Part shown: piece after piece, positions 21,076-23,755 of the stretch
Position numbering within the stretch: the first letter of the stretch is position 1
Layout of the letters: every line of letters begins with the position of its first letter
IMG/VR virus record: IMGVR_UViG_3300023179_000035
Coordinates: 52,395-116,394 of that record
DNA: 64,000 nucleotides
Reading direction: 5' to 3' (one strand)
Source of the DNA: a virus
The notes under the pieces: model-generated
Databases searched by the model: none
What the model was told of the DNA's origin: nothing
What the model saw: only the letters and a program-made list of their open reading frames with translations
Program-made: the position numbers and the translations under genes

Positions 21076-21864
21076 ATGGCCAAGAAGCAAGAAGAGATGC
21101 AGCAGAAGAAGACCAAGTCTGAGGCTGACGACATAACGTCAGACCTCATAAAGGACCTCAACAAGCAGTTCCAGTCTCGGGTCGCCTTTAACCTCTCAGA
21201 GGACGCGGCCCCCACCATCGTCAAGCGCTGGATCCCGACCGGGTCGACGCTGTTGGACTACATCGTGTCCAACCGCCGCGACGGCGGCATGCCAGAGGGT
21301 CGTATCATCGAGATCTCTGGAATGCCTTCTACGGGCAAGTCTCACATCGCCTTCCTGATGGCGAAGAATGTCCAGGCCATGGGCGGCCTCGTCGTCTATG
21401 TCGACACAGAAAATGCAGTGCCCGTCGACAAGCTGGCAGCCATGGGCATCGACGTCCGCAAGCGCTTCGTCTACTGCGACACGCACTGCACAGAGGAGGT
21501 CTTCTCCATCATCGAGTCGACCATCACAAAGGCCAAGGCGGTCCTCGACAAGGACATCCCGATCCTCGTCGTGTGGGACTCTGTCGCCGCCACTTCGCCG
21601 AAGGCAGAACTGGAGGGCGAGTACGACCAGAACTCTGTGGGTCTCCAGGCCCGAACGATCTCCAAGGGCATGCGTAAGATCACTGGCGTCATTGGCCAGA
21701 ACAACGTCACCCTCGTGTGCCTTAACCAACTCCGCTCTGCTATCGGCGTTACCCACGGCGACCCGATGTGTGTTGAACCAGCTTCAACTCGAATTAAGAT
21801 CCGGTTCAGGCCAGATAGTCAGTTTGCAAAGCTGCTAGAAAGAAAGGAAAACAATGCTGAATAA
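21076..21864 (+). CDS. RecA/UvsX-type recombinase, N-extein plus split-intein N half
   Basis: Residues 1-231 are the N-terminal part of a RecA-type recombinase: Walker A GMPSTGKSH (82-90), GGLVVYVDTENAV, Walker B-like PILVVWDS and the NQLRSAIGVTHGDPM loop. At Cys232 the sequence turns into a 31-residue N-intein (CVEPASTRIKI...) ending at a stop. Its ORF overlaps the next by 11 bases (ATG at 21854), which suggests translational coupling. ATG at 21076 preferred over an in-frame GTG at 21067. After protein splicing and intron removal the product would be about 393 residues, normal for the family. It catalyses strand exchange. Confidence 0.85.
   Translation: MAKKQEEMQQKKTKSEADDITSDLIKDLNKQFQSRVAFNLSEDAAPTIVKRWIPTGSTLLDYIVSNRRDGGMPEGRIIEISGMPSTGKSHIAFLMAKNVQAMGGLVVYVDTENAVPVDKLAAMGIDVRKRFVYCDTHCTEEVFSIIESTITKAKAVLDKDIPILVVWDSVAATSPKAELEGEYDQNSVGLQARTISKGMRKITGVIGQNNVTLVCLNQLRSAIGVTHGDPMCVEPASTRIKIRFRPDSQFAKLLERKENNAE
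21769..21861 (+). mobile_element. Atypical split intein, N fragment (RecA)
   Basis: 31 codons beginning with nucleophilic Cys after GDPM. So short an N fragment marks an 'atypical' split intein (classic ones have about 100 residues). Base composition turns AT-rich here. Confidence 0.8.
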
Positions 21865-22207
21865 TGAATACATCGAAAAAGAAGTGAGTTTCTTAGAGTT
21901 GGCTTCGCTCTTAGGAGTCGAAGATTTCTCTGAAGAGACAGCGATTGACCTTGAGAACATGGGGATTCAAGTCGAATCACCCGCTGGCTTCTCTAGCGTA
22001 GATCAATTTTACGTCAAGGGCAGGGCTGATGGGTACTCTCTAGGCGACTTGATTGCCAGCGGTGAGCACAGAACACTTGTGAACAACGAGTGGGTAAAGC
22101 TGAAGGACAATCCTGAAGCCAAGAAATTAGGCAAGAGGATCGACGTCGTCGATATCTCTGTTCCTGATGGAAATGCTTACATCGCTAATGGCCATGTGAA
22201 TCATAAT
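21854..22207 (+). mobile_element. Atypical split intein, C fragment (RecA)
   Basis: 118 codons ending HN before Ser+1. It overlaps the N-fragment ORF, with no endonuclease gene between the halves. Confidence 0.8.
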
Positions 22208-22231
22208 TCATCACCGGGTGGTTGGAACTAA
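21854..22231 (+). CDS. Split-intein C half plus RecA C-extein exon 1
   Basis: A 118-residue C-intein: GEHRTLVNNEWVKL resembles block B with its His, and RIDVVDISVPDGNAYIANGH with terminal VNHN resembles blocks F/G. SSPGG follows, the start of the C-extein with Ser as +1 residue. The group I intron begins after 22222; the unspliced frame adds only WN and a stop at 22231, so the RecA C-terminus is made only from spliced RNA. In RecA proteins this loop reads like TTTGGNALKF, matching SSPGG joined to NAIPFHS. Confidence 0.8.
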   Translation: MLNNEYIEKEVSFLELASLLGVEDFSEETAIDLENMGIQVESPAGFSSVDQFYVKGRADGYSLGDLIASGEHRTLVNNEWVKLKDNPEAKKLGKRIDVVDISVPDGNAYIANGHVNHNSSPGGWN

Positions 22232-23281
22232 GCTTAGCCTCCCGTAAAAAATTCCGTGAATTGCTGGAAACTCCTTAGAGCCTTCTTTGCTACAACGCGG
22301 TTGGTAACGACGAACGTGAATGCAGAAAAAAAGAAGGATTGGACAATCAGCAGCCAAGCGCCAGAGCGATCTGGTGAAGGTTCAGAGACTAGAATGAGTA
22401 ATCTTGCGATGAACTCCGTACCTATTCATCATGCAAGAAGAAAATTCCTCGAGCGCGGAACGACTAGTTGAGTGCAAGGTATGCAGTAAGTCCATGAAAG
22501 CAATCACAAATTCTCACCTAAAGACGCACGGAATGACCACTAGCGAATATAGGGTCAAATTTCCGCATGCTGCATTTGGTGAGTTTTCTAGATTTGCTGA
22601 TTGGAGAAACAGTGAAGAAAATAAGGCACATATGCGCGAGCAGAACAAGCGCATCTTTTCTTCACATGAAATTCGTGAAAAGAGGAAGACCAACCTTTTC
22701 AAAGCCATGAAGACTGAGGAGTACAAGCAGGCGCTGTCAGCCGCCATGAAAGTGTACGCTCAAACTCCTCTTGGCAAGCAGAGGCTTTCAAATAAGCCTG
22801 TCACTGCAAGAATGAAGCTATCTAACTTTGAAAGGTGGGTCGATCAATTTGGGCTTGATGAGGCTGTAAGACGCCAATTGGATTGGCAGGCCAAGAATGT
22901 TTTGCCTGCTAAATCTCGGCACACAAAGCCTGAATTGATGTTGGCTGATATGCTGCGGTTGATGAACGTTAAGTTTATTGACCAATTCCCTCTTCCGCGG
23001 ATGTACTGCGACTTCTTCCTTCCTGACTACAACATGATTGTTGAGGTTGATGGCGATTATTGGCACGCAAATCCGTCGCTGTTTGCTCCAACTGATCTAA
23101 TAGGCAAGAAGAAGACAATGGCACAAGAAATTTGGGCTAGGGATGCAGAAAGAACGAACAAGATCCAATCACTTGGATATAAAGTGATGAGAATTTGGTC
23201 GTCTGATCTCAAAAAGACAACAGCCCAGCAACTGGTTGAAGATATAGTCCGGCACTGCGAGAAATTGCAGTGATTACACCG
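22223..23281 (+). ncRNA. Group I intron in recA
   Basis: The 5' exon ends in T (22222) and the intron in G (23281). P1: 22215-22222 pairs with 22237-22244 with a U-G at the splice site and one mismatch. Core elements: P-like AATTGCTGGAAA (22259-22270), Q-like AATCAGCAGCCAAGC (22345-22359), R-like GTTCAGAGACTAG (22380-22392), S-like AAGATATAGTCC (23239-23250); GACTA of R pairs with TAGTC of S (P7). Joining the exons restores SSPGG-NAIPFHSSVRV, a continuous RecA segment. The endonuclease ORF lies between R and S. Bases 22232-22430 hold the core and no gene. Confidence 0.88.
22431..23273 (+). CDS. Vsr-like (EDxHD-type) intron homing endonuclease
   Basis: A 280-residue protein. The N-terminal module has CKVCSKSMKAITNSHLKTHG with TTSEYRVKFP (MucR/Ros-like zinc module), then a basic helical middle. 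The C-terminal Vsr/restriction-like nuclease has TKPELMLADML, FPLPRMYCDFFLPDYNMIVE and VDGDYWHANP (Glu, Asp, His cluster) plus a VMRIWSSDL strand. Inferred role: cleaves intronless (and perhaps inteinless) recA to spread the intron. Its last codons overlap the intron's S element and 3' end (23238-23273), so protein and ribozyme share sequence. No clear ribosome site. Confidence 0.8.
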   Translation: MQEENSSSAERLVECKVCSKSMKAITNSHLKTHGMTTSEYRVKFPHAAFGEFSRFADWRNSEENKAHMREQNKRIFSSHEIREKRKTNLFKAMKTEEYKQALSAAMKVYAQTPLGKQRLSNKPVTARMKLSNFERWVDQFGLDEAVRRQLDWQAKNVLPAKSRHTKPELMLADMLRLMNVKFIDQFPLPRMYCDFFLPDYNMIVEVDGDYWHANPSLFAPTDLIGKKKTMAQEIWARDAERTNKIQSLGYKVMRIWSSDLKKTTAQQLVEDIVRHCEKLQ

Positions 23282-23755
23282 AATGCAATTCCATTTCATT
23301 CTTCAGTTAGAGTCAGGCTAGGCTCTGGCTACCCAGTCAAGGACAAGGCAGGCAACGTCATCGGTATCCACGTCACCGTGTCAGTCAAGAAGAACAAGGT
23401 CGCCCTTCCCTTCCGGAAGTGCGAGTTCGACATCCACTTTGGCCACGGAATCGTCGAGCACGAGTTCTTGTTCGACGAGCTGCGGTCGTGGTGTGACGCG
23501 AATGGTTCAGCCCAGGCGGGTGGTAAGCTAATCTCTATCTCAGGATCTGGCGCCTGGAAGGAGCTGCGAGTGTCGGACTCTAAGACAGGTGAGGTCCTGC
23601 AGGAGAAGAAGTTCTACAAGAGCGAGTTTGGCGACCTGTGGGCGTCTGAAGAGTTCGGTCCTGTGCTTCGAGACCTGGCTGAGAGGGCACTCTGCGTCGA
23701 CCTATCTAGCTACAATCCAAACGAGACATCACCGGGAGAGAACGATGACGACTGA
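23282..23755 (+). CDS. RecA/UvsX recombinase, C-terminal exon
   Basis: 157 codons from NAIPFHSSVRVRLGSG to GENDDD: the end of the ATPase core and a C-terminal domain with an acidic tail, as in many phage recombinases. It has no start of its own (the in-frame TTA CAC CGA before it is intron) and is translated as continuation of the 21854 ORF after RNA splicing. It overlaps the dUTPase start by 11 bases. Confidence 0.85.
   Translation, partial: NAIPFHSSVRVRLGSGYPVKDKAGNVIGIHVTVSVKKNKVALPFRKCEFDIHFGHGIVEHEFLFDELRSWCDANGSAQAGGKLISISGSGAWKELRVSDSKTGEVLQEKKFYKSEFGDLWASEEFGPVLRDLAERALCVDLSSYNPNETSPGENDDD

Follow-up and report, generated by a model that had tools for sequence, protein, structure and literature searches.

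We analyzed a 64,000-nt stretch (further referred to as the window) of the IMG/VR virus record IMGVR_UViG_3300023179_000035 (record length 116,394 bases), in which the recA gene of an uncultured phage is interrupted by a split intein without a nuclease and, 15 coding nucleotides downstream, by a group I intron that encodes a homing endonuclease. About twenty phage lineages have this pairing, a recurrence suggesting that the two elements may spread as partners. The leading explanation is joint homing of both elements on one nuclease, to which we incline without strong conviction; it is not proven, and the partnership is not obligatory. What the sequences show directly is the anatomy of the locus, its recurrence, the co-occurrence of the two elements, the single intact nuclease at all nuclease-bearing pairs of the window site, and the joint presence or absence of both elements in two related alleles (L202 and L146; related loci are designated here by L numbers). 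The two dissimilar elements, both predicted to remove themselves, lie in the DNA-binding loop of RecA, which is the phage's own recombinase and the likely enzyme of homing.

Structure of the interrupted recA gene

The locus comprises the following features.

21076..21768, plus strand: recA/UvsX exon 1 (N-extein, ending in THGDPM); Pfam RecA 131 bits, phrog_97 UvsX-like 193 bits, alignment to Escherichia coli RecA
21769..21864, plus strand: N-half of the split intein (IntN, 31 aa, starting with CVEPASTRIKIRF; stop codon TAA at 21862-21864); Cys1 of block A conserved in related loci
21843..21848, plus strand: AAAGGA, Shine-Dalgarno-like (SD-like), within the open reading frame (ORF) of the N-half and upstream of the C-half start; read from the sequence, with similar sites at nearly all other split loci
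21854..22207, plus strand: C-half of the split intein (IntC, 118 aa including Met, ending in NGHVNHN); Pfam Intein_splicing E 9e-4, NCBIfam TIGR01443 above the cut-off, best Foldseek matches are inteins (weak)
22208..22222, plus strand: mini-exon SSPGG (TCATCACCGGGTGGT), 15 nt, between the intein and the intron; read from the sequence
22223..23281, plus strand: group I intron with the terminal G at 23281; Rfam RF00028 55 bits, P3 covariation and the invariant GATATAGTC in 28 introns
22431..23273, plus strand: intron-encoded EDxHD (Vsr-like) homing endonuclease, 280 aa, with a zinc-finger-like N-terminus and the nuclease domain at about 160-275; Pfam/NCBIfam/PHROGs, profile match to 3r3p, Foldseek
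23282..23755, plus strand: recA exon 2 (C-extein after SSPGG, starting with NAIPFHSS); Pfam RecA positions 206-261, 34 bits

The original prediction, made from the letters of the window, placed the intein between M and S and the intron after SSPGG, in the loop equivalent to TTTGG of RecA. All of its coordinates hold, and alignment of the spliced product agrees, with both insertions falling within GNPE/TTTGG/NALKFY of E. coli RecA. Two further structural claims were confirmed: the intein halves overlap, by 11 nt of ORF, with no nuclease between them, and the nuclease inside the intron is Vsr-like, as follows from its match to Vsr/DUF559 and from the profile match to I-Bth0305I. The G+C content is about 45% in the intein, the intron and the nuclease gene versus 55–59% in the recA exons, as expected for acquired elements. 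Production of functional RecA should need RNA splicing, which connects IntC-SSPGG to exon 2, and then protein trans-splicing, which would join the exon 1 protein to the SSPGG-exon 2 protein.

Recurrence and co-occurrence of the elements

Viral contigs were scanned with the intein, the nuclease and recA as queries, which yielded 249 assessable recA records (183 distinct) with 37 carrier lineages. Two surveys with recA alone as the query provided 158 assessable alleles sampled regardless of inserts. Nineteen carrier lineages have both the intein at the window site and the intron; together with L220, which has a second, upstream intein as well, the total is 20. Only the intron is present in seven lineages, and only the window-site intein in another seven. 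An intein at a second site, 21 nt upstream, occurs alone in two lineages and with the intron in one (L202). Wherever the window-site intein and the intron co-occur, the spacer is 15 nt.

Among the 158 alleles from the recA-only surveys, 153 are empty, four carry both elements, one carries the intron only and none the intein only. The paired insertion is not a matter of chance, since the same two positions and the 15-nt spacer are found in 20 lineages while 153 of 158 recA alleles are uninterrupted there. The association between intein and intron in this sample is strong (Fisher test, 2e-7; the sequences are not independent), and the intron is present in 12 of 19 lineages found through the intein alone compared to 5 of 158 recA genes. 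As in a collaborative pair, a nuclease-less element adjoins a nuclease-bearing one with which it is statistically associated.

Sixteen of the 20 pairs consist of an intron with the nuclease and an intein without one, the intron nuclease being the only intact one at the pair. The reverse is seen in L119, whose intein carries the nuclease between its halves, beside an ORF-less intron. The remaining three (L003, L106 and L122) have kept the pair with the nuclease deleted, N-terminal remnants being visible in L003 and L122. In no allele do both partners of the pair carry an intact nuclease. Full-length nuclease genes are present in the introns of 24 lineages. L119 may be compared with L013, which has the nuclease-bearing intron and no intein: exon 1 is 93–98% identical and the intron ends are the same. 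This near-isogenic pair is consistent with entry of the intein beside an intron already in place, which lost its nuclease afterwards or had lost it before. Every state is represented among the related loci (uninterrupted recA, one element without the other, the two together, the nuclease in either partner, the nuclease lost), which makes the life cycle testable.

The second intein site in recA lies between IG and TMYGDP and harbors an unrelated intein, found without a nuclease beside the intron (L202:912-2542), alone (L356), or with its own nuclease (L357). A triple insertion in recA is observed at L220:1100-4500 and also in L221, L223, L225 and L226. In L220 the first element is an intein that carries its own EDxHD nuclease (ORF 1338-2384); a nuclease-less split intein follows after 21 coding bases, and the nuclease-bearing intron after a further 15.

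The split intein

IntN occupies 21769-21861 with Cys1 as its first residue, and IntC starts at the ATG at 21854, five bases downstream of AAAGGA. The catalytic positions of inteins are present (C1, H72 of block B, H117-N118 and S+1) and conserved in relatives. Measured against curated cut-offs, the C-half scores 17.1 versus 15.6 for TIGR01443, and 19.5 versus 35.8 for Pfam Intein_splicing with only part of the domain as the query; all seven relatives of the C-half (members of A1) match Intein_splicing. AlphaFold models the C-half by itself with modest confidence; the closest PDB structures according to Foldseek are inteins, at a weak level. The very short IntN (31 aa), the long IntC (118 aa), the separate ORFs and the start codon and SD-like site proper to IntC are those of an atypical split intein. 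The nuclease gene that lies between the intein halves in fractured genes of the Dassa type is absent from this position in the window. Dedicated ribosome-binding-like sites before the IntC starts led us to reject a cis-intein broken by a frameshift. A search for the intein in cultured phages and in bacterial and archaeal genomes gave no match.

Intein-only alleles include unsplit mini-inteins (L104, L107 and L112). The L112 intein is nearly identical to that of L109, which has an EDxHD nuclease between its halves; hence the short-IntN split is located where a nuclease once sat or could insert. The two loci, split with the nuclease (L109:100-1953) and contiguous (L112:3800-4501), form a direct nuclease gain/loss pair. 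A decayed nuclease is present at the same intein site in L110. Outside recA, the replicative helicase ORF at L189:3361-5071 breaks off at its Walker A motif (GVGK, then C), where intein-like sequence sets in, and an EDxHD-like nuclease comes next; this is probably another fractured gene beside recA.

The group I intron and its nuclease

The RF00028 score of the window intron exceeds the gathering score of 50, and the match is the sole one of its kind in the 64 kb. ORF-less relatives score 79.5 (L005), 79.2 (L106) and 54 (L122). Rfam with default filters misses nuclease-bearing introns at other loci, probably because of the long ORF inside the intron core; at such loci the intron was recognised by its conserved core motifs and by P3 covariation, as seen across 28 related introns. 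The third codon of the intron is an in-frame stop. The internal guide sequence is located at 22237-22243, P3 at 22251-22257 with 22455-22460, the 5' region of P7 at about 22379-22391 with J8/7-P7 at 23241-23249, and P9 at 23252-23258 with 23267-23272. The exon strand of P1 is formed by the last 7 nt of the mini-exon. The J8/7-P7 motif GATATAGTC is found in 28 of 28 introns, and P3 shows compensatory changes among them (UUCCG/CGGAA, UCCCG/CGGGA, UCCUG/CAGGA, CUCGG/CCGAG, UUCGG/CCGAA). With the exon U paired to G in P1, the P3/P7 core and the terminal G in place, the window intron is, judged from its sequence, a genuine group I intron and is predicted to be self-splicing.

The last exon base, which pairs with G in P1, is T in all 28 intron carriers versus 60 of 138 empty alleles. 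The mini-exon signature CCGGGTGGT is found in 16 of 28 carriers versus 1 of 138 empty alleles, as would be expected if it either arrived together with the intron or was selected for P1.

For the nuclease, nine relatives were aligned. The ORF at 22431-23273 has the conserved E, D, H and D of the Vsr-like EDxHD homing endonuclease domain, its catalytic E168, D194, H212 and D238 being invariant in the nine, and the zinc-finger-like N-terminus corresponds to ROS_MUCR in 8 of 9 members. The profile built from the nine relatives retrieves I-Bth0305I (3r3p), the EDxHD prototype, with E 3.5e-6, and Foldseek matches its predicted structure to Vsr and to 3r3p (E 1e-4; TM-score 0.76 when normalised to 3r3p); in PDB, 3r3p ranks first by profile and second by fold. 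The best match in cultured phages is only 26% identical. At each of its ends (window 22452-22460 and 23241-23249) the nuclease gene shares sequence with the ribozyme core. Codons for the conserved SA[E/G], close to the protein N-terminus, make up the 3' strand of P3, the variable residue covarying with the 5' strand; codons for the conserved DIV, close to the C-terminus, make up J8/7-P7. A free-standing relative, 42% identical and without the ribozyme-coded motifs, is located directly behind an uninterrupted recA (L135:5165-5965) and may be a source or a collaborator. In another related phage contig, the manA RNA motif (Rfam RF01745, 61 bits) is located upstream of an uninterrupted recA (L295:1710-1908).

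Evidence for joint and for separate movement

L202 and L146, whose exon 1 sequences are about 91% identical, differ by both elements at once, these being present together or absent together. The L202 intein is the different, nuclease-less one, 36 nt from the nuclease-bearing intron. The divergence of the two alleles is 10/36 in these 36 nt versus 52/600 in exon 1, an excess that is borderline once splicing-constrained positions are excluded (5/24, p 0.05). The inteins of L006 and L010 are 84–98% identical in 50-nt windows and 92% identical overall, with adjoining exons at about 66–72%. This sequence comparison argues for recent horizontal movement of the nuclease-less intein. On the recA tree, the intein changes state at least 17 times and the intron at least 16 times. 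In independent pairs on this tree, the changes are in the same direction in about 4.2 of 7 and in opposite directions in about 0; the pairs are too few for significance.

We infer the position of nuclease cleavage, homing, and splicing of both elements. In the proposed mechanism, the intron nuclease would cut empty recA in the conserved codons of the L2 loop, near the intron site. The left side of the break would find the donor either via the 15-nt mini-exon or via exon 1 beyond the intein. The 15-nt spacer, the only recA homology between the elements, is probably too short for recombination, so that repair would normally copy both of them. The intein lacking a nuclease would hitch on that of the intron, by collaborative homing, and in L119 the intron may, in reverse, ride on the nuclease of the intein. 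If repair copies both elements, the nuclease could be in either partner with the same outcome, and L119 fits this. A further-reaching reading is that of a compound mobile element, in which an RNA-level parasite (the intron) and a protein-level parasite (the split intein) are held together by a spacer of insufficient length for recombination and have a single nuclease gene in common, residing in either partner; it would have formed or re-formed many times, at two intein sites and with three elements in L220. We regard this as finely balanced, leaning slightly to doubt.

Several observations weigh against joint homing. The chimeric allele L010 (3980-6368) has the intein as in L006, and the intron with its nuclease as in L012, with the junction at the 15-nt mini-exon, which shows that the intein and the intron can be reassorted or exchanged separately; such reassortment is easiest where both parents carry both elements, as shared element sequences supply homology. 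Three intein lineages (L109, L115 and L119) have their own EDxHD nuclease between the halves, and in seven lineages no intron accompanies the intein, so the intein family is able to move on its own. The seven also rule out obligate dependence of the intein on the intron. Mutual exclusion of the intein nuclease and the intron nuclease is only suggestive (p 0.056 at the window site and 0.13 when the second site is included), and the extra intein of L220 brings a second nuclease into that allele. Intein, nuclease and recA distances are all correlated. The partial Mantel correlation of intein and nuclease given recA reaches significance only if the distant L017 clade is included (r 0.49, p 0.0002, versus r 0.23, p 0.05, without it), and the congruence of intein with nuclease distances does not clearly exceed that of either with recA; co-transfer and shared descent are not told apart by these correlations. 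Comparison of flanks in fixed segments is noisy where lengths differ; in properly aligned pairs the borders were sharp, and no long co-converted exon flanks were seen. The CCGGGTGGT signature may stem from selection for P1 pairing instead of co-conversion. The original prediction that the intronic nuclease could drive homing of both elements gains from the nuclease-less intein, the intact intron nuclease, the co-occurrence and the L202/L146 comparison. As an exclusive rule it does not stand, given the intein-only lineages, the inteins' own nucleases, the L010 chimera and the lack of clearly greater congruence between intein and nuclease distances.

Alternative explanations

Two independent parasites could share a hot spot, the intein having been spread by its own EDxHD nuclease, later lost, and the intron by its own; both would target the most conserved recA codons, and cooperation would not be needed. 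This agrees with the high conservation of the insertion region, with the same-site inteins that have a nuclease between their halves, the decayed one in L110 and the nuclease-free, near-identical L112, with the location of the short-IntN split where the intein nuclease sits, and with the separate exchange in L010. However, given the intron in about 3% of recA genes, it predicts mostly inteins without the intron, whereas the intron accompanies 4 of 4 and 12 of 19 of them, and the same pairing is repeated at another intein site (L202). We consider a shared hot spot possible but unlikely.

The elements could also be immobile by now, kept vertically and moved by ordinary phage recombination, so that the pairing reflects shared ancestry. 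The retention of both elements in L003, L106 and L122, which lack the intron nuclease, would be explained in this way, as would the correlation of all the distances; the full-length intron nucleases in 24 lineages, with catalytic residues invariant in the nine aligned, the at least 16–17 state changes on the recA tree and the sharp identity jumps at element borders make it improbable. That the fragmented gene is a dying or misassembled relic no longer making RecA is more improbable still, indeed hardly credible: several reading frames have to cooperate, and RecA expression here is predicted from sequence, but the same architecture is found in many independent contigs, ribosome-binding-like sites precede most IntC starts, intein catalytic residues are intact, ribozyme helices covary and the exons have no frameshifts. 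An assembly artefact was rejected because of the recurrence in independent contigs.

Comparison with known systems

The only characterised relative of the window nuclease is I-Bth0305I, which Taylor et al. reportedly described in 2011 as the EDxHD nuclease encoded by the recA group I intron of Bacillus thuringiensis phage 0305phi8-36. It is said to cut next to its own intron site, and we know of no intein reported beside that intron. At the gene level the likeness is close (EDxHD/Vsr fold, group I intron, phage recA), while the catalytic domains are about 21% identical. I-Bth0305I contacts a target of ~60 bp (PMC3943268). By analogy, such a target would span both insertion sites of the window, if centred near the intron.

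Dassa et al. are said to have described, in 2009, fractured genes, i.e. phage split inteins with an EDxHD nuclease between the halves. The window resembles them in having a split intein in a phage replication/recombination gene and a nuclease of the EDxHD family, and L109, L115 and L119 match their layout. Unlike in fractured genes, the nuclease gene of the window lies outside the split intein, in the group I intron that starts 15 nt downstream of it.

The coincidence of an intron and an intein is known from nrdE of SPbeta (Lazarevic 1998; Derbyshire and Belfort 1998, 'Lightning strikes twice', cited in PMC3653736). As far as that citing account goes, it is likewise a group I intron and an intein in one phage gene, not described there as recurring together or as a tandem of an intron and a split intein 15 nt apart. 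In haloarchaeal MCM, two homing elements are also adjacent in one gene, but both of these neighbouring inteins have nucleases and they interfere mutually (PMC10643990). Cooperation is hence not to be assumed, and the collaborative prediction is not trivial. In the literature covered, no account was found of closely spaced intein-intron pairs that recur and have one nuclease. Each part is already known (EDxHD introns, fractured-gene split inteins, collaborative homing, intron-intein coincidence), and the combination was not found described.

Collaborative homing is known from cyanophage psbA and from T3/T7-like phages (PMC3984707, PMC2814812, PMC10448857); I-PogI, according to a citing paper, cuts the site of a neighbouring intron (Nakayama 2003, cited in PMC10643990). 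The likeness to joint homing in recA is that one nuclease serves an element without one. The known cases combine a nuclease with an ORF-less intron, whereas here the passenger would be an intein, leaving at the protein level. If this is true, collaborative homing extends from introns to inteins and offers inteins a route to lose the nuclease yet spread, and with it a reason for the persistence of nuclease-free mini-inteins and overlapping split inteins in phages.
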